A stretch of 10,424 nucleotides of DNA from an uncultured cyanobacterium (GTDB lineage: Bacteria > Cyanobacteriota > Cyanobacteriia > Phormidesmidales > Phormidesmidaceae): contig CALHGI010000626.1 of NCBI GenBank assembly GCA_938029995.1, positions 1 to 10,424 of the forward strand, in the 5' to 3' direction. Shown here one piece after another: positions 1,209 through 10,424 of the stretch. How positions within the stretch are numbered: position 1 is the stretch's first letter; each line of letters starts with the position of its first letter. The notes below the pieces were generated by a model. The model saw only the letters and a list, made by a program, of their open reading frames with translations, was not told where the DNA came from and did not search any database. The translations under genes were made by a program, and so were the position numbers.

Positions 1209-2345
1209 TTAACTACGAATTTGCACGGGCATCACTAGATAGGTCATCTGTAGGCCGCTCACAGGCGTCAAGATAGCTGGACTGGTGGCAGAATTGCACT
1301 GGAGCTGAATTTCAGAGCTGGGCAAAGCTCGCAAGCCTTCTAGCAAATAACGAACATTGAAAGCAATGTCGAGATCATCGCCCGTTACCTGGGCGGACAT
1401 TTCTTCGCGACCACTGCCGACTTCCTGAGCTTCAACGGAAAGCGCCAAGGTTTGTCCCGTATTGGCAATGGACAGTTTAACAATGTTATTGCGTTGATCG
1501 GCCAATACCCCAATGCGTTCTAGGGCTGCCATGAGCTGTTTGCGATCTATGGTGAGTTGCCGCTCAAACTTACGAGGAATCAACTGTCGATAGTTGGGGT
1601 ATTGGCCTTCTAAAAGGCGGGTGGTAATGCGCTGATGACCTAGTTCAAAGACAACTTGGGTTGGATCAAATCTTAAGGCGACCGGTTCTGTACCTTGATA
1701 CGCCTGGAGCAGCCGTTCTAATTCCCGTAGTGCTTTCCCAGGTACGGTCACATCAATCGAAAGGTCGACCCCAGAGTCATCTACACTTTGCACTACGGCC
1801 AGTCTGTGACCATCGGTGGCCGCAAATTCTAGGTTTTCTGGCTCAGCAACCACATGGACGCCGGTTAGGACCTGTTTCGTTTCATCGGAACTCGTGGCGA
1901 ATAAGGCTCCGCGTAAACCTTCTAAAATCGATTCGGCGGAAACACTGGCTACTTGTCCATCTTCCACCAGGGGAAGATTTGGATAGTCAGCCGCATCCAT
2001 GCCCCGCACACGATACTCACCAGCCGAACAGGTGAGGGTAATCACTGGCTCCGTTTCTGATTGGATAAAATCCAGATCTTCCGGTGGTAGTTTGGCTACG
2101 ATATCCCCTAGTAATTTCGCTGGGACTGTCAGTATCCCCCCTGTATCCACATGGGCCGAGAAACTGGTTTGAATCCCCAGGGTTTCATCAAAACTCGTCA
2201 GAGTTATACGCTGTGTGTCCTCATCAACGTTCACCAAAATATTAGCGAGCACAGGCTTATTGGGTCTTGAAGGAACGGCCCGACTAACGATGGAAAGGTG
2301 CGTGTTTAGATCACCTTGGGAACACACGAACTTTATGGCTGACAT
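1209..2345 (-). CDS. dnaN: DNA polymerase III beta subunit (sliding clamp)
   Basis: Ring-shaped dimeric clamp that tethers DNA polymerase III to the template and serves as a docking platform for replication and repair proteins. The translation from ATG 2345 is 378 residues, normal for DnaN, with three clamp repeats of roughly 120 residues each. Recognisable motifs are SRAVPSRPNKPVLANILV near the N-terminus, ATDGHRLA in the second domain, EGQYPNYRQLIP opening the third, FNVRYLLEGL, and a C-terminal YLVMPVQIRS close to the conserved YxVMPxR end of the family. The open frame continues upstream to an ATG at 2414, but those 23 extra residues are not family-like and lie toward the AT-rich origin, so 2345 is preferred. 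No clear Shine-Dalgarno is seen. It is the next gene after dnaA on the same strand, with the origin between them. Confidence 0.97.
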   Translation of the reverse strand: MSAIKFVCSQGDLNTHLSIVSRAVPSRPNKPVLANILVNVDEDTQRITLTSFDETLGIQTSFSAHVDTGGILTVPAKLLGDIVAKLPPEDLDFIQSETEPVITLTCSAGEYRVRGMDAADYPNLPLVEDGQVASVSAESILEGLRGALFATSSDETKQVLTGVHVVAEPENLEFAATDGHRLAVVQSVDDSGVDLSIDVTVPGKALRELERLLQAYQGTEPVALRFDPTQVVFELGHQRITTRLLEGQYPNYRQLIPRKFERQLTIDRKQLMAALERIGVLADQRNNIVKLSIANTGQTLALSVEAQEVGSGREEMSAQVTGDDLDIAFNVRYLLEGLRALPSSEIQLQCNSATSPAILTPVSGLQMTYLVMPVQIRS

Positions 2346-2440
2346 ATCGATATCAAGAATGCTGGCCAATCGTAACACCCTGCAAGAAGGATGGAAAGAC
2401 TTTATTTTGAACAAGTTTTACTTGTCTAGGATCTAGATCT

Positions 2441-2474
2441 AGTCTTTATTAGATTTAAATAATAGTAGTAGTAG
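2441..2474 (+). other. DNA unwinding element with DnaA-trio repeats
   Basis: Read 3' to 5' on the plus strand from 2474 leftwards, the triplets are GAT, GAT, GAT, GAT, AAT, AAA (2474 down to 2457), the pattern described for DnaA-trios that guide the DnaA filament onto single-stranded DNA. A G-rich spacer (2474-2483, GGGGTTGGGG) and then a DnaA box (2488-2496) follow on the right, and 2441-2470 has only five G/C in 30 bases. The order box, G-rich spacer, trios, AT-rich tract matches the bacterial basal unwinding system. Confidence 0.8.
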
Positions 2475-2487
2475 GGGTTGGGGAAAC

Positions 2488-2496
2488 TGTGGAAAA
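2488..2496 (-). promoter_or_regulatory. DnaA box next to the DnaA-trios
   Basis: Exact TTTTCCACA on the minus strand (TGTGGAAAA on plus), 13 bp from the first trio. By position this should be the box that nucleates filament growth into the unwinding element. Confidence 0.85.
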
Positions 2497-2542: not shown

Positions 2543-2562
2543 TGTGGAAAAGCTGTGGATAG
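2543..2562 (-). promoter_or_regulatory. Pair of same-strand DnaA boxes one helical turn apart
   Basis: An exact TGTGGAAAA (2543-2551) is followed by TGTGGATAG (2554-2562), the latter one base from the E. coli-type box. Their starts are 11 bp apart, so two DnaA molecules would sit on the same face of the helix. Confidence 0.8.
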
Positions 2563-2571
2563 ATCAAGACG

Positions 2572-2610
2572 TTTTCCCCAGCTTTCCTAGGCCGTCCAGT
2601 TTTTTCCCCA
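2572..2610 (+). promoter_or_regulatory. Two degenerate DnaA boxes
   Basis: TTTTCCCCA occurs at 2572-2580 and 2602-2610, each with one mismatch to TTTTCCACA, 30 bp apart. They may be low-affinity sites filled late in the cycle, or chance matches in a pyrimidine-rich strand. Confidence 0.45.
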
Positions 2611-2644
2611 TAGGGCTATTTCTTCTCCCCATGTAATCCCCATC

Positions 2645-2674
2645 TTTTCCACAGAAAAAAGAGGGTTTTCCACA
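2645..2674 (+). promoter_or_regulatory. Two exact DnaA boxes two helical turns apart
   Basis: TTTTCCACA at 2645-2653 and 2666-2674, both followed by G and 21 bp apart, in the opposite orientation to the boxes near the trios. Confidence 0.85.
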
Positions 2675-2851: not shown

Positions 2852-4216
2852 TTACTGGCTACTCAAGCTGATGCGATCGCTCAGTTCGCGGATGGTCTGG
2901 GCCATGTTGAGATCTGTTTTGATGAGCTGGGTAATTTTGTCACAGCTATATAGGACGGTTGTATGGTCTTTGCCGCCAAAGACTTCGCCAATTTTGGGTA
3001 GACTCAGGTCCGTATGTTGCCTCAGTAAATACATTCCAATTTGCCGGGCCTGACTAATTTCGCGGCGACGGGAATTGCTTTTGAGGTCATCAATCGGCAC
3101 ATTAAAAACTTCGGAAATAATGTCTAGTACCGATTTGGGAGATGCATCTACCTTGCCCGCTGGTGCGTCTAGCACCGGCTTGAGATTTTCGATGGTCATG
3201 GGGAGACCGGAAATAGATGTGTAGGCAATGGCCCGAATTAGAGCCCCTTCTAGTTCGCGAATGTTTGAGGTATAACCCGCTGCAATATATTCTGTGACGT
3301 CGCGACTTAGGGTGACGTTTTCATATTCGGCTTTCTTCTGCAAAATAGCCATGCGGGTTTCAAAGTCTGGGGATTGAATATCGGCAATCAGTCCCATGGA
3401 AAACCTTGAACACAGCCTTTCCTGTAGCCGAGGGATTTTATTCGGAGGACGATCAGAGGCTAAGACGATTTGTTTGCCCGCCTCATGGAGCGTGTTAAAG
3501 GTGTGGAAGAATTCTTCCTGGGTGTACTCCTTACCCTCAATAAACTGAATATCGTCCACTAGGATGATGTCCACGGCGCGGTACTGCTCTCGAAAGCGCT
3601 GCATACTATCGCGGCGGATGGCTGTGATCAGATCGTTGGTGAACTGTTCGGTGGAAACGTAGGCAATGCGAGCATTAGAGTCAATGTCTAGGCGATACTG
3701 ACCAATGGATTGCATGAGATGGGTTTTGCCCAGCCCAACGCCACCACAGAGAAATAATGGGTTAAATTCACGTCCTGGGGACTCGGCCACCGCTAATGCT
3801 GCGGCATGGGCCATGCGGTTATTGGCTCCGACCACAAAGCGGGAAAAAACGGCCTTAGGGTTGAGGCCAGGGGATCTGGCCTTAGTGTCGGCATTACTGG
3901 GTCGTTCTGTAACCTGGGGCAGTGGCCAAGCAGCAGCTTCACCCGATCGATCGATGCCATCATCCGTACTTTCACTAACCGTGACAACCACGTCAATATT
4001 GTGGCCTAAAAGTTCTTGGGCTACGTCGGAAATAGCCTGAATGTAGTGCTTTTGAACCCAATTGCGGGCAAAGGGATGGGGGGTGGAAATCGTTAAGGTT
4101 TGATCGGCTAGGGTTTGTAACCGAGTGGGTTTAATCCACGTTTCAAACGTAGGGCCGCTGAGTTGGTCCTGAAGTTTCTCGAGCACTTCATTCCAAAGAC
4201 CTTCTATCTTGTCCAC
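2852..4216 (-). CDS. dnaA: Chromosomal replication initiator protein DnaA
   Basis: AAA+ ATPase that binds DnaA boxes, opens the origin and loads the replicative helicase. Numbered from GTG 4216 (454 residues): domain I about 1-80 ([28 protein letters not shown]-like segment), variable linker about 80-118, AAA+ domain about 119-340 with Walker [10 protein letters not shown] (158-166), Walker B ILVDDIQF (218-225), sensor 1 LASDRPP and sensor 2 RELEG (320-324), then domain IV about 361-454 with the DNA-binding signature GGKDHTTV. The frame extends upstream to another GTG at 4282 (476 residues). GTG 4216 is preferred because GGAGGG lies 6 bp before it and family similarity starts there. All key residues are present. 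The gene faces the origin and is followed by a strong hairpin. Confidence 0.96.
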
Positions 4217-4230
4217 AACTAACCCTCCGG
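4208..4230 (-). promoter_or_regulatory. Ribosome binding site deciding the dnaA start
   Basis: On the minus strand GGAGGG is followed by TTAGTT and then GTG at 4216-4214. The spacing and complementarity to the 16S rRNA tail are good, whereas no comparable signal precedes the upstream GTG at 4282. Confidence 0.65.
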
Positions 4231-4274
4231 CTAAAGGTGAGCACACGCTCTGCGCTAACGGCTGAAATTTGTCC

Positions 4275-4283
4275 TTATCCACG
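4275..4283 (+). promoter_or_regulatory. Possible DnaA box upstream of dnaA (autoregulation)
   Basis: TTATCCACG differs from the E. coli-type DnaA box TTATCCACA in the last base. It lies about 60 bp upstream of the preferred dnaA start and overlaps the alternative upstream GTG. DnaA repressing its own gene is known in other bacteria; a single site with one mismatch is only suggestive. Confidence 0.35.
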
Positions 4284-5168: not shown

Positions 5169-6350
5169 ATGTCTAATCTACGCCCTTCCACAGCTTGGTT
5201 TTTTAAGTCGTTAGCAACCTATGGGTTTATTGCGGTGTGCAGCACGACGGCGGCCGTACTCACCACAGCACGTCTCGTGCCGACTACGGCACAGCAATCG
5301 CCTACTACGGGGTCTGGACGTTTGTTAACGGATCGTAGCTTTATCGCTTCGGTGGCTGATCAGGTGGGGCCAGCGGTGGTTCGGATTGATTCCTCACGCA
5401 CCGTGGCCCAGCGGCCCAGTGTGTTTAATGATCCGTTTTTCCAAGAATTTTTTGGGGCTAGGGGGCAGCAGCCATCCACTCGGGTAGAGCGGGGTCAGGG
5501 CTCTGGCTTTGTGGTTAAAGCCGATGGGCTGATTTGGACCAATGCCCACGTGGTTGAGGGCGCCGATACGGTAACCGTGACTCTTCAAGATGGCCGCGAA
5601 TTTGAAGGGGAAGTCATAGGGGAAGATCCTCTGACGGATGTGGCGGTCATTCAAGTAGAGGCCCAGGACCTGCCGACGGTCACCTTAGGGGATTCAGAAC
5701 AGCTGCGGCCAGGGGAATGGGCCATTGCCATTGGCAACCCCCTGGGGCTAGATAGCACCGTCACAGCAGGTATCGTCAGTGCCACAGGACGGACCAGCGC
5801 TCAGATTAGGGTGCCCGATAAACGGGTCCAGTTTATTCAAACCGATGCTGCCATCAATCCTGGTAATTCCGGTGGTCCGTTGCTCAATGAGCGGGGTGAG
5901 GTGATTGGGATTAATACGGCCATTATTGGTGGAGCCCAGGGATTAGGATTTGCCATTCCCATTAATTCTGCTCAACGTCTGGCCCAGGAATTAATTGAAA
6001 AAGGCCGGGTGGATCATGCGTATTTGGGCATTCAAATGCGGACCTTAACCAATGATCTACGCCAACAAATTAACCAGGATGCTCGCAATAATATTCGTCT
6101 ATCGGCCGATGAAGGCGTGGTTATTTTAGGAGTGTTGCGTAATTCTCCAGCTGCCCAGGCCGGTATGGATGTGGGCGATGTGATCGTATCCATGAATGGC
6201 AAGACCATCAGCGATGCCGAACAAATTCAGCAGATTGTTCAAGATGTTGGCGTCGGGGATGCCATTACTGTTGAGATTGATCGGGGTGGACGTCAGGTTA
6301 GTTTAGCTGTGGAGACCCAGGTGTTGCCTCAGCAGCCGCAGCGCCGATAG
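5169..6350 (+). CDS. HtrA/HhoA/HhoB-type (Deg) trypsin-like serine protease with one PDZ domain
   Basis: Envelope protease and chaperone of the DegP/HtrA family that degrades or refolds damaged exported proteins. The 393 residues begin with a short basic stretch and a hydrophobic segment at about 18-35, followed by TTAQQSP, so it is either a cleaved signal peptide or a membrane anchor. The S1 protease domain (about 55-275) has the full triad: His127 in TNAHVV, Asp157 in DPLTDVAV, and Ser234 in NPGNSGGPL. One PDZ domain follows (about 285-385, YLGIQM to the VEIDRGGRQ strand). One PDZ and about 400 residues fit the three cyanobacterial paralogues HtrA, HhoA and HhoB; which one cannot be settled by eye. 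No strong Shine-Dalgarno precedes ATG 5169. It is the first gene of a probable two-gene unit with def. Confidence 0.95.
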
Positions 6351-6355
6351 GTCCC

Positions 6356-6880
6356 ATGGGAAATGTACGTCCGGTGATTGAATTAGGCGATGGGCGCTTG
6401 AGACAATGGGCCCGGCCGGTGGGCCCGGTGGAAGATCCTGGTTTACAGAGTTTAATTGATGATTTATTAGCCACGGTGGTGCTTAAAAACGGTGTGGGCA
6501 TTGCAGCTCCTCAAGTGGCGTCAGGTCTACAACTGTTCATTGTGGCATCCAGACCTAATCCGCGTTATCCCCAGGCCCCCACCATGGAGCCCACGGCGAT
6601 GATTAATCCTCGCATCCTGAGCCATAGTCATGACCAGGTCAAGGGATGGGAGGGATGTCTCAGTGTGCCGGGGTTGAGGGGGTTGGTTCCCCGCTATCGT
6701 GCTATCGAGGTGACGTATCTGGATCGCGATGGCCAGAGGCATCAACAATATTTTCAGGATTTTATCGCCCGCATTTTTCAACACGAGTACGATCACCTAC
6801 AGGGTAAGGTCTTCCTCGACCGAGTTGAGGACCCTCAGGATATTTTGACCGAGGCAGAATACCAGCAGCGATTTACCTAA
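6356..6880 (+). CDS. def: Peptide deformylase
   Basis: Metalloenzyme that removes the formyl group from the N-terminal methionine of new polypeptides. The 174-residue protein carries all three deformylase motifs: GVGIAAPQV (46-54), EGCLSVP (99-105) and QHEYDHLQG (142-150). The metal ligands are Cys101, His143 and His147, with Glu144 as catalytic residue. Length is normal and nothing is missing. ATG 6356 lies only 5 bp past the stop of the protease gene with no Shine-Dalgarno between, which suggests co-transcription and translational coupling. It converges on the DEAD-box gene, with 34 bp between the two stops. Confidence 0.96.
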   Translation: MGNVRPVIELGDGRLRQWARPVGPVEDPGLQSLIDDLLATVVLKNGVGIAAPQVASGLQLFIVASRPNPRYPQAPTMEPTAMINPRILSHSHDQVKGWEGCLSVPGLRGLVPRYRAIEVTYLDRDGQRHQQYFQDFIARIFQHEYDHLQGKVFLDRVEDPQDILTEAEYQQRFT

Positions 6881-6914: not shown

Positions 6915-8618
6915 TTAAACTCGTTTAGGTTTGCTCTTGGGCCGCTGCTTACCGCCCCCTTTGCCGGTTATATCCCCGTCCACTTTCGAAATACGTAGGG
7001 GTTGACCAGAGATGGAAACTTTTTTCAGATGGCGTAGGATTTCCTTGGAGACGCCTTCGGGTAAATCGACGGTACTATGGCTGTCGTAAATATTGATGCG
7101 GCCAATATAGCGGCTTTCTAAACCGCTTTCATTTGCGATCGCACCCACAATATGACCCGGCTTTACCCGATGACGGTGGCCCACTTCAATGCGATAGCGA
7201 CCCATACCTTTTTCCGGCGGTGATGTTCTGTGCTCCCTCCGTTGGGGACGCTCCCGTCTATCACCACGGCGCTCAGGTTTCGACCGCTTACGCTCCTCTA
7301 GCAGTAAGGGTTCATCCCCCTGGACTAATTTCGCCAGGGCGGCTGCGAGTTCAATGGCAGGCACATTATGCTCCTGCTCATATTGCTCCATCAGGTTATT
7401 AAAGAACTCCAGGTTTTCCTCAGCTAGAGTGTCCGTAATCTGCTGCTTAAAACGGGCAATGCGCTTATTGTTGACCATTTCTGTGGTCGGCATTTCCATT
7501 TTTGCAATTTTTTGTTTGGTGGCCCGCTCAATGGCATACAGTAAGCGCCGCTCCCGAGGCGCGACAAACAAAATCGCTTCACCGTTACGGCCTGCCCTAC
7601 CTGTCCGCCCCACGCGATGCACATAGGTTTCCGTATCGTAGGGCATGTCATAGTTGATGACGTGGCTGATGCGTTCCACATCCAGACCTCGAGCGGCGAC
7701 GTCGGTCGCTACCACAATGTCCAACTTGCCTGATTTGAGCTGATCAACGGTTCGTTCCCGCTGGATTTGCGAGACATCGCCACTCAAAGGAGCCGTTTCA
7801 TAGCCCCGAGCTTCTAGTTTTTCCGATAGCTCAACCGTTGCGATGCGCGTTCGCACGAAGACGATCATGCCATCAAAGGTTTCTGTTTCTAAAATCCGGG
7901 TCAAGGCATCTAGCTTGTGATAGCCACTCACCATCCAATAGCGCTGTTGGATAGTGTCCGCTGTTGAGGTCTTAGACTTAATTAAGACCTCAGCCGGGTT
8001 ATTCAGGTGGCGCTGTGCAATGCGACGAATTTCTTTGGGAAGGGTGGCTGAAAAGAGAGCGACCTGACGGGTGTCGGGGGTTTTTTCCAGCACCCATTCC
8101 ACATCGTCAATAAAGCCCATGCGGAGCATTTCATCGGCTTCATCTAACACCAGGCACTGCAGCGCACTCAGATCCAGGGTGCCTCGCTTCATGTGATCCA
8201 TCACTCGGCCAGGGGTCCCTACGACAATATGAACCGAGCGTTCTAACTTACGTAGTTGAATGCCATAGCTTTGACCACCGTAGAGGGGTAGTACATGGAA
8301 CCCTTTCATCTGTGAGGCATAGCTTTGGAAGGCTTCCGCCACTTGGATAGCCAGTTCTCGGGTGGGAGTCAGTACCAGGGTGTGGGGTAACCGTTGGCTA
8401 ATATCTACACGGGTGAGTAGTGGTAGGGCAAAGGCTGCGGTCTTACCCGTGCCAGTCTGAGCTTGCCCAATAATGTCTGTACCCGCTAGAACATGAGGGA
8501 TTGTCTGAGATTGAATTGGCGTTGGGCTTTCGTAGCCCAGCACCTCCAAAGCCTTTAGTACCGGCTCACTCAATGACAACTCACTAAAGTTTGGAGCCGA
8601 TTCCACATCCATTGACAT
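6915..8618 (-). CDS. deaD: DEAD-box ATP-dependent RNA helicase, DeaD/CsdA type
   Basis: RNA helicase that unwinds short duplexes in mRNA and in ribosome assembly, often important in the cold. The 567 residues show a Q-motif region (FSELSLSEPV to PTPIQSQTIP, 11-41), Walker A AQTGTGKT (53-60), PTRELA (85-90), TPGR (135-138), DEAD (159-162), SAT (190-192), ATDVAARGLD (304-313) and HRVGRTGRAG (334-343). A charged linker (about 440-470) leads to a C-terminal RNA-binding domain of the DbpA/CsdA kind (about 472-546, from MGRYRIEVGHRHRVKPG to ISGQPLRISK) and a Lys-rich tail. That extra domain sets it apart from short minimal helicases. The start is ATG 8618 or ATG 8612, two codons later; neither has a strong ribosome site. 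It is transcribed alone, divergent from the CBM gene. Confidence 0.95.
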   Translation of the reverse strand: MSMDVESAPNFSELSLSEPVLKALEVLGYESPTPIQSQTIPHVLAGTDIIGQAQTGTGKTAAFALPLLTRVDISQRLPHTLVLTPTRELAIQVAEAFQSYASQMKGFHVLPLYGGQSYGIQLRKLERSVHIVVGTPGRVMDHMKRGTLDLSALQCLVLDEADEMLRMGFIDDVEWVLEKTPDTRQVALFSATLPKEIRRIAQRHLNNPAEVLIKSKTSTADTIQQRYWMVSGYHKLDALTRILETETFDGMIVFVRTRIATVELSEKLEARGYETAPLSGDVSQIQRERTVDQLKSGKLDIVVATDVAARGLDVERISHVINYDMPYDTETYVHRVGRTGRAGRNGEAILFVAPRERRLLYAIERATKQKIAKMEMPTTEMVNNKRIARFKQQITDTLAEENLEFFNNLMEQYEQEHNVPAIELAAALAKLVQGDEPLLLEERKRSKPERRGDRRERPQRREHRTSPPEKGMGRYRIEVGHRHRVKPGHIVGAIANESGLESRYIGRINIYDSHSTVDLPEGVSKEILRHLKKVSISGQPLRISKVDGDITGKGGGKQRPKSKPKRV

Positions 8619-8958: not shown

Positions 8959-10424
8959 ATGCAAACTACCTTTGAAGTCTCCCAAGATTGGGGAGACGGC
9001 TTGGTGGGTTTCGTTACCGTTGAAAATAGCGGCTCTACGGTTCTTGAACCATGGGATCTGACTATTGAAACCACCTTTGATATTGAAACGATTTGGGGTG
9101 GAGACATCCTAGATCGAGTTGGGAATCTCTATACCGTGGGCGCTAAGGGGTGGAATGCCCGTTTAGCGCCTGGGGAAAGTGCTAAGTTCGGTTTTGTGGG
9201 GCACAATGCCACCGCCGAGCGGCACCAGGTGACAGCTGTACCAAAGCCTGTGATTGTTCTGTCGTCGCCTCAACCGGAGGTGGTTGTTCCCGATATCCTA
9301 CGGACGACCTTTGAAATCTCAGAAGATTGGGGTCAGGGCTTGGTGGGTTTTGTTCACCTTGAGAATACGGGTTCGGAAGTTCTCGATGATTGGGTTTTCA
9401 CGATTCAAACGACGTTTGATATTGACACCCTTTGGGGGGGAGAGATTATTGAGCGTAAGGGGTTTCTCTATACCATTAGGGCTAAAGGGTGGAATTCGCG
9501 ATTAGACCCCGGTGAGAAGACTAAATTTGGCTTTGTGGGGCGTAATGCAACATCTGAAACTCATCAGGTAACGGTTGTTGCTGAGCCTTCTTTTTATAGT
9601 CCTGCGTCTGTACCCACCGAGGTTGCGTTGGAGGCAGGACCGTTAGCGGAGGTTGATGCGGTTGATTTTGCGATCGCACAGGACTGGGAGGGAGGATTTA
9701 CCGGTCACCTCAGTTTTACCTACAGCGGCACCGAGCCCTTGCAAAACTGGCACCTGCGGTTTGAGTTACCGTTTGAAATTTCAGAGCTGTGGCATGGAGA
9801 AATTGTTGACCATCGTTTTGAACAAAATACCCATTTCTACACCGTTAGCAATGCTAGCTGGAATGGCACCCTCCTCCGGGGTGACACCATTACCCTGGGG
9901 TTGAACGCTCAAGGGAGCTCTGTCCATGGGCCCATGCATTTCTATTTCAATGATTTGCCCGTAGCATCGGCTACCGGTGAAGGCGTCACGTTGGAGTTGT
10001 CACCGACATTACCAACATCAGAACCCATAGTTGCCCAACCCATGGTTGAGCAGCCTGTAGTTGAGCCATCTCCTGCTGAGGCAATACCGGTCGAAGTACC
10101 GGTGACTGAGGGACCTGCTGGGACCCAGGAATTTGTTGAGCCCTCCTTGGGGATGGACTCGTCTCCAACTCCAGAGCCTGGGGGCGAGCCCCTGTTGCCA
10201 GAGGCTCCTGGTGTAGCGGAATCTATCGTTGCGGAGCTGCCTGCCACTGAACCGTCGATGGCCGCAGGCTTACCGCTTGAAGACTCGTGGATGCCAGGGC
10301 CTGTGGTGGAGCCACCTGCTCCGCCAGTACCTATGGTGGAGGCCTCTATTGTTCAACAGCCTTCCCTAGAATCCGCAGCATCCGCTGTTTTAGACGTCCC
10401 CTTAGCTGGACAACTGATGCCGGA
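8959..10424 (+). CDS. Multi-module protein with three CBM2-like carbohydrate-binding domains (3' partial)
   Basis: ATG 8959 opens a frame that runs off the right edge, giving 488 visible residues. It enters a CBM2-like module at once (about 3-94, TTFEVSQDWGDGLVGFV to HQVTAV), followed by a second (about 116-207) roughly two-thirds identical to the first by eye, and a more divergent third (about 235-333, ending FYFND). Each keeps three tryptophans in the DW, LW/IW and GWN/SWN contexts, which in family 2a modules form the flat cellulose- or chitin-binding face; the terminal cysteine pair of classical CBM2a is absent. From about 334 the sequence is a Pro/Glu/Val/Ala-rich linker. There is no signal peptide, and an in-frame stop at 8890 with no earlier start excludes an extended N-terminus. 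The catalytic or anchoring part, and any C-terminal secretion signal, lie beyond the window. Confidence 0.85.
   Translation, partial: MQTTFEVSQDWGDGLVGFVTVENSGSTVLEPWDLTIETTFDIETIWGGDILDRVGNLYTVGAKGWNARLAPGESAKFGFVGHNATAERHQVTAVPKPVIVLSSPQPEVVVPDILRTTFEISEDWGQGLVGFVHLENTGSEVLDDWVFTIQTTFDIDTLWGGEIIERKGFLYTIRAKGWNSRLDPGEKTKFGFVGRNATSETHQVTVVAEPSFYSPASVPTEVALEAGPLAEVDAVDFAIAQDWEGGFTGHLSFTYSGTEPLQNWHLRFELPFEISELWHGEIVDHRFEQNTHFYTVSNASWNGTLLRGDTITLGLNAQGSSVHGPMHFYFNDLPVASATGEGVTLELSPTLPTSEPIVAQPMVEQPVVEPSPAEAIPVEVPVTEGPAGTQEFVEPSLGMDSSPTPEPGGEPLLPEAPGVAESIVAELPATEPSMAAGLPLEDSWMPGPVVEPPAPPVPMVEASIVQQPSLESAASAVLDVPLAGQLMP
8965..9580 (+). repeat. Tandem duplication of a CBM2-like module
   Basis: The segment from 8965 to about 9240 recurs from 9304 to about 9580 with the same codon phase and about 63 of 92 aligned residues identical by hand count. 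Shared runs include GLVGFV, AKGWN and KFGFVG. The two lie about 340 bp apart start to start, with a short Pro/Val linker between them. The third module (from 9661) is clearly related but older. Confidence 0.8.

Follow-up and report, generated by a model that had tools for sequence, protein, structure and literature searches.

Positions 2457–2496 of the window, the whole 10,424-nucleotide stretch of cyanobacterial DNA analysed here, very probably form the basal unwinding system (BUS) of this organism's oriC, judging from the sequence of the stretch and of its relatives. The putative module comprises four adjoining elements.

2457–2474, plus strand: DnaA-trios 3'-GAT GAT GAT GAT AAT AAA-5' (CTACTACTACTATTATTT on the minus strand)
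2475–2478, no strand: spacer of 4 bp, ACCC on the minus strand; likewise 4 bp in most modules found
2479–2487, minus strand: slot D4, proximal tandem DnaA box GTTTCCCCA, degenerate (7/9)
2488–2496, minus strand: slot D3, DnaA box TTTTCCACA (9/9), the box named in the first-pass annotation

Along the gene (minus) strand the order is TTTTCCACA (2496–2488), GTTTCCCCA (2487–2479), ACCC (2478–2475) and CTA CTA CTA CTA TTA TTT (2474–2457), the last corresponding to GAT four times, AAT and AAA on the plus strand read 3' to 5' from 2474 to 2457. The first-pass annotation had described the DnaA box at 2488–2496 and these triplets, and both its coordinates and its letters are right on re-reading of the sequence. 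It had also placed a G-rich 13-bp spacer between box and triplets. The distance of 13 bp is correct and falls inside the published 10–13 bp peak, but nine of the 13 bp constitute a degenerate second DnaA box and the rest is the 4-bp spacer. A plain G-rich spacer is ruled out, the letters at 2479–2487 being a box that matches at 7/9 here and at 8/9 or 9/9 in six loci of the same genus (L009–L014), where the D4 position reads GTTTCCACA, ATTTCCACA or TTTTCCACA and is followed by 4 bp. The mirrored layout that had been proposed is similarly ruled out. Taken gene-wise, dnaA is followed by the boxes, the trios and dnaN, an ordinary polarity that recurs in B. subtilis (PMC6669920) and in the Bacillota locus L045; the layout appeared mirrored because the window was printed opposite to the genes.

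The arrangement agrees with what is described for basal unwinding systems. TTTTCCACA lies 13 bp from the trios and the second box 4 bp, the BUS survey rule allowing at most 16 bp between a DnaA box and the trios (PMC8287927). At least three 3'-NAN-5' trios are expected, with GAT preferred near the box, and the window displays GAT four times followed by AAT and AAA. The two boxes are co-oriented in tandem with the upstream one nearer the consensus (TTTTCCACA at 9/9, then GTTTCCCCA at 7/9), which is the commonest arrangement (57%) in the survey. The degradation of D4 to 7/9 in the window counts against the BUS reading, as does the fragmentary assembly of the window's genome (733 contigs, 70% complete). 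The module scores 28 out of 30 on a scale giving credit for a tandem pair of DnaA boxes and for four CTA triplets. When the 1-kb upstream region was shuffled 1000 times with its dinucleotides preserved, the maximum was 22, and the opposite strand of the window reached 20. A CTA run is a short triplet repeat and could in that respect be a chance product of low complexity; the score of 28 against the shuffle maximum and the in-register conservation across families described below contradict such an origin, which is hardly credible.

The module is located in a dnaA-dnaN intergenic region of approximately 500 bp, within the following gene context.

451–924: Fur-family regulator
1209–2345, minus strand: dnaN (sliding clamp), with Pfam DNA_pol3_beta domains; likely start ATG at 2345, to judge from the frame and from relatives
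2369–2377, minus strand: extended -10-like element TGTTACGAT, presumed dnaN promoter; same letters by eye in L009–L014
2400–2456, no strand: A+T-rich tract beyond the trios, delimited by A+T content; presumed first-opened region
2852–4282, minus strand: dnaA (initiator), identified by Pfam Bac_DnaA and by alignment to 8btg
5169–6350: trypsin-like/PDZ protease
6356–6880: peptide deformylase
6915–8618: DEAD-box RNA helicase
8959–10422: protein with three CBM2 cellulose-binding stretches

The module adjoins the A+T-rich region inside an intergenic region that also holds ten box slots. The tract of 83% A+T that had been reported beyond the triplets is recovered in seven 30-bp segments whose starts fall between 2434 and 2443, with 76% over 2400–2473, and the 60-bp segment richest in A+T within the intergenic region begins near 2403, next to the module. 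Between dnaA and the array, at 2765–2820, a TTTTCCACA box is followed directly by a 20-pair hairpin, possibly the dnaA terminator. The extended -10-like element, shared with the same-genus loci and lying between the tract and dnaN, was absent from the output of the sigma-70 scan. Its presence would suit a reading in which the boxes mainly regulate dnaA-dnaN transcription, with DnaA as the repressor, and promoter or spacer sequence gave rise to the CTA run incidentally. A Nostoc, a Leptolyngbya boryana and others that retain the tandem boxes but no CTA trios speak for the same reading, since their boxes may serve some other purpose. Against it stand the nearly fixed trio register and 4-bp spacing and a complete array situated away from dnaN in one genome (G052, below), and control of transcription is a very improbable main role for the boxes.

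The register was assessed in the DNA upstream of dnaN from 74 cyanobacterial regions, in which tandem boxes were picked blind to trios. Besides the window, the set includes 35 named cyanobacterial loci and 38 regions from further genomes, with the Bacillota loci L043, L045, L046 and L047, the fragment L048 and duplicates of named loci left out. A tandem pair was found in 54 of the 74, and five of the 20 pairless regions (L017, L059, L078, L079 and L088) still carry the module by score. CTA stands exactly 4 bp past the proximal box in 49 of the 54 regions and CTACTA in 43, while out of register, at each gap from 0 to 12, CTA is found in 0–1 of 54. The tandem boxes abut, with an offset of 9 bp, in 51/54 and are offset by 8 bp in 3/54. 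The first-pass annotation had named conservation of the triplet register and of the box-to-trio spacing in relatives as a check, and both are found to be conserved. Column information drops away from the boxes, from about 1.6–2.0 bits in trios 1 and 2 to about 0.2–0.8 bits in trio 5, the absolute bits per trio column being inflated because the modules were selected by score.

The spread of the module was followed across 290 genomes of the class. A simple pattern, TTTCCNCANNNNCTACTA, matched 199/290 genomes, and its reversed control also matched a minority of them. The pattern missed variants and gave chance-like matches with odd spacers, one of them in the dnaA-less genome G285, and a sequence-only model, R1 (37 columns, from 48/55 distinct modules), was therefore used instead, some of its source genomes being among the 290 searched. 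R1 matched at E ≤ 1e-4 in 208/290 genomes and between 1e-4 and 1e-3 in 8; the other 74 gave E ≥ 1e-3 or went unmatched. Of the 40 families, 30 include one or more genomes at E ≤ 1e-4. Among the genomes with the module at this threshold is G047, which we take to be Gloeobacter; G065, presumably a strain of S. elongatus, carries the module and nine of the ten slots. In the window's own family 39 of 40 genomes match at E ≤ 1e-4, the window's included, and the fortieth, G008, has a model E of 0.008 yet scores as a module (S = 23, slightly over the shuffle maximum). G008, G084 and G208 are weak by the model in families where nearly all others score. Absence by the model is thus soft, because G008 still reaches S = 23 and the three genomes of family f2 that were read carry a degenerate CTA CGA. 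The 74 genomes of 290 without a match at E < 1e-3 count against the BUS reading; in its favour, all five dnaA-less genomes of the 290 are without the module at E ≤ 1e-4. The conserved register and the spread place the window module with the DnaA-trio/BUS type. The earlier view that this is the known filament-loading arrangement pointing toward dnaN is thus supported by the module score, the conserved register and the location between dnaA and dnaN beside an A+T-rich tract.

Beyond D3 and D4, eight further slots extend toward dnaA, and all ten slots are filled in the window.

2543–2551, minus strand: slot D2, DnaA box TTTTCCACA, 55 bp start to start from D3
2554–2562, minus strand: slot D1, DnaA box CTATCCACA, 11 bp from D2
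2572–2580, plus strand: slot I6, inverted box TTTTCCCCA
2602–2610, plus strand: slot I5, inverted box TTTTCCCCA
2623–2631, plus strand: slot I4, inverted weak box TTCTCCCCA (7/9)
2634–2642, plus strand: slot I3, inverted weak box TAATCCCCA (7/9)
2645–2653, plus strand: slot I2, inverted box TTTTCCACA
2666–2674, plus strand: slot I1, inverted box TTTTCCACA

The map was derived from 56 discovery regions (L011 and L044 dropped), with box positions counted from where the proximal box ends. Inverted boxes form sharp peaks at about -195, -174, -163, -152, -131 and -101, direct boxes at about -83, -72, -18 and -9, and the trios stand at +4. It was then read in 80 held-out genomes, phylogenetically non-independent, that were hand-picked among the strong R1 matches listed, outside the discovery set and spread over genera; a slot was counted when a box of 7/9 or better lay within 2 bp of it. 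Only eight slots are informative in this set, because the genomes were chosen by D3, D4 and the trio (D3 and D4 80/80 as part of the selection). Among the direct slots D2 is filled in 79/79 and D1 in 72/79. The inverted slots are filled in 74/79 (I2), 71/79 (I6), 61/79 (I4), 58/79 (I1), 54/79 (I5) and 45/79 (I3), and the same places on the opposite strand give counts of 0–2. Nine or ten slots are filled in 51/80 held-out genomes and five or fewer in 4/80.

By hand count the 136 mapped regions span 31 families. The step between D2 and D3 measures 52–56 bp in 133 of these regions, 105 of them at 53 or 54 bp, with 46–60 bp allowed by the script; a wider search returned 52–56 bp in 46/47. D1 and D2 are 11 bp apart in 102/124. 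The D2–D3 gap itself is weakly conserved, with a mean of 0.25–0.32 bits per column against 1.6–1.8 in the boxes (58 regions with a step of 54), and almost no box of 8/9 or better occurs inside it, weaker boxes falling outside this scoring. Steps of 11, 21 and about 53 bp come close to whole numbers of helical turns, and the 30-bp step between I5 and I6 fits less well. In G052 the module and all ten slots are located 467 bp past the dnaA match on a 4.68-Mb contig, with dnaN at least 1.6 Mb away in either direction; the array there is therefore an origin-like cassette that moves as one unit, and is not just a dnaN control region.

Two regions of genus g12, L238 and L239 (genomes G018 and G216), display, upstream of dnaN, two modules separated by approximately 0.92 kb, both of them having D1–D4 and I6 of their own; L238 contains no ORF above 82 aa. 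Three genus-mates show one module each, though in two of them the sequence covered ends roughly 0.7 kb upstream of it. Two six-letter words recur 16–106 bp beyond the proximal box: AGATCT in 26/136 regions (shuffle mean 5.8, maximum 11) and TTTAAA in 96/136 (shuffle mean 24), both counts being uncorrected for relatedness. AGATCT is the E. coli ATP-DnaA 6-mer.

In the proposed opening mechanism DnaA would bind the abutting boxes D3 and D4 as its anchor, and the DnaA oligomer would extend from there across the 4-bp spacer onto the plus strand, engaging one 3'-GAT-5' trio per protomer. Duplex opening would start at about 2474 and spread toward dnaN into the A+T-rich tract. The upstream array, composed of the direct pair D1–D2 and the inverted boxes I1–I6, may feed or brace the D3–D4 platform. 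A bend between D2 and D3 is suggested by their almost constant separation, close to five helical turns, and would resemble that between R1 and R5M of E. coli, with HU as a candidate bending protein. The first-pass annotation had presented the site as a prediction of where the duplex first opens in a cyanobacterial origin; the sequence supports the module, and an in vitro precedent exists with S. elongatus DnaA (PMC8287927).

By alignment to 8btg the window DnaA carries the single-strand-binding residues and the arginine finger expected of a BUS initiator. Six residues, N216, I219, I222, R231, E257 and R293, are identical to B. subtilis N187, I190, I193, R202, E228 and R264; five of them are reported to touch or flank trio bases and the remaining one is the arginine finger (R264 in B. 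subtilis). B. subtilis DnaA forms one continuous oligomer from the tandem boxes onto the trio strand, with two bases of each trio captured (PMC10721633). Similarly, strand separation by S. elongatus DnaA on its own scaffold in vitro requires both boxes and trios (PMC8287927). The DnaAs of S. elongatus and other Gram-negative bacteria also opened the scaffold with ADP, cross-linked oligomers of Gram-negative DnaAs were undetected, and the authors suggest that the complexes may differ from the Gram-positive filament (PMC8287927). The filament step is thus the weaker part of the explanation, given that ADP also works and that cross-linked oligomers went undetected for S. elongatus.

The same ATP independence of S. 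elongatus opening (PMC8287927) would accord with a loop-back of the E. coli kind, in which the DNA bends between D2 and D3, DnaA on D1–D2 takes the single strand and the trio filament is secondary. The D2–D3 step of 52–56 bp, set beside 55 bp for R1–R5M of E. coli, would also fit it, as would the opposite orientation of the two arms, as in E. coli (PMC5742627), and the two HU-family genes in the window's genome. In the score-selected modules, however, conservation of the two proximal trios equals that of the boxes, which counts against the loop-back because it needs no trios by itself, and the trios are required for S. elongatus strand separation on short scaffolds (PMC8287927). A loop-back as the principal route is unlikely, and assembly of DnaA from D3–D4 onto the trios is the preferred route.

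Ten families are without any genome at E ≤ 1e-4 by R1 among the 290 genomes. These families include f32 (0/16; members Nostoc sp. UHCC 0870 and Dolichospermum sp. DET69), f31 (0/7; Synechocystis sp. PCC 7338), f36 (0/3; Cyanobacterium aponinum PCC 10605), f37 (0/2; Picosynechococcus sp. PCC 7117), f34 (0/2) and f35 (0/1; Euhalothece natronophila). Families f15 (17/37) and f2 (24/43) are mixed at this threshold, members of f15 being Leptolyngbya boryana and Kovacikia minuta. DnaA is dispensable for replication in Synechocystis PCC 6803, Nostoc PCC 7120 and Synechococcus PCC 7002, and the dnaA gene is missing from C. aponinum (PMC7198777). Pelliciari et al. regard trios as unexpected in DnaA-independent bacteria.

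DnaA-independence is reported to have arisen several times in cyanobacteria (PMC7198777), and the window module might accordingly be an intact but idle relic in a lineage that starts replication without DnaA, like Nostoc or Synechocystis. DnaA-independent lineages or their near kin are without canonical trios, in contrast to the window with its ten slots and four GAT trios, and the module is retained in 39 of 40 genomes of the window's family by the model and in the fortieth by score. A relic is thus very improbable, and a working BUS remains the favoured reading.

The dnaN-upstream DNA was inspected in 27 genomes that R1 did not match at E ≤ 1e-4. Ten of them (the Nostoc, two of f34 and seven of f15 including L. 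boryana) retain an abutting pair and have four to nine of the ten slots filled (to within 3 bp), but show no CTA trios. The loci L134 (Nostoc), L127–L129 (Leptolyngbya, genus g78) and L135–L136 (f34) illustrate boxes kept with the CTA trios gone. In Dolichospermum, of the same family as the Nostoc, there is no array near dnaN, and named Crocosphaera/Cyanothece loci have at most a pair, 11 bp apart. No array was present within 1.2 kb of dnaN in the genomes of Synechocystis, Picosynechococcus, C. aponinum, Euhalothece and genus g35 of family f22. The three f2 genomes read, of 19 without a match at E ≤ 1e-4, display degenerate trios, CTA CGA, and not none at all. In addition, GTACAATAGTAC follows the boxes in all of three Leptolyngbya g78 genomes, and a lax rule of three NAN triplets might call trios there. 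Both cases count against a simple trio-loss reading.

As read from sequence across different lineages, with few independent losses, the losses fit a decay order in which the trio disappears first, then the pair and finally all boxes. It is an even call whether the whole picture holds, namely a rigid blueprint (the I1–I6 arm; D1–D2, a step of about five turns and D3–D4 leading to the trios) whose trio-first decay marks dependence on DnaA, with L. boryana and its allies being DnaA-independent or opening the duplex differently. If true, the blueprint would join the filament model of B. subtilis and the bent-DNA model of E. coli in one origin. The pattern of trio loss matches the few lineages in which DnaA dependence has been measured. 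The origin map is good to about 2 bp and applies to regions of 31 families in the phylum. Together with the loss pattern it makes testable the D2–D3 step as a bend, the order of origin decay and the DnaA dependence of unstudied cyanobacteria.

In most genomes of genus g36 (family f23) dnaA gives two separate matches, which might represent an insertion or a long linker in DnaA. Diverged second dnaN-like matches occur on plasmid contigs (contig C2 of G205 and contig C2 of G189, the Dolichospermum), and in G158 the only dnaN copies found are diverged (38% identity or less).

The trio module in cyanobacterial oriC is already known, including from S. elongatus in vitro. The fixed box map and the loss of trios by lineage look new; a literature search, with subscription journals mostly outside it, found no report of either, which is weak evidence of novelty. 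The S. elongatus BUS belongs to the same phylum and has the same module; it was published as a scaffold-tested unit of boxes and trios, and a fixed box array is undescribed in the sections covered (PMC8287927).

The likeness to E. coli oriC is one of geometry, and descent or a shared mechanism is unproven by it. Both origins have two arms of boxes in opposite orientation, I1–I6 and D1–D4 in cyanobacteria. In E. coli R1 adjoins the DUE with R5M 55 bp off, start to start, and D3 and D2 are similarly 52–56 bp apart; neighbouring arm boxes are separated by 2–4 bp in E. coli, and D1 and D2 by 2 bp in most cyanobacterial regions. In contrast, E. coli has a single DUE-side box and weak trios where cyanobacteria have a tandem pair and strong trios, and the R1–R5M gap holds an IHF site and the weak box tau1 where the cyanobacterial gap has hardly any box of 8/9 or better and no named bending site.

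The B. subtilis BUS (DnaA-box#6/7 and trios, incC) resembles the module in its parts, although the surrounding array differs. The tandem boxes are mostly 9 bp apart in cyanobacteria and 8 bp in the Bacillota locus L045, and the upstream boxes of this one locus lie off the slots of the cyanobacterial ten-slot array with its near-fixed step. The ten-slot map was not seen in L043, L045 and L046, the three Bacillota loci compared. B. subtilis also requires distal boxes, for which action by way of a DNA loop is proposed (PMC6669920). As in the window, the B. subtilis system is located between dnaA and dnaN (PMC6669920), and it likewise consists of two co-oriented boxes, a short spacer, 3'-GAT-5' trios and an A+T-rich tract.
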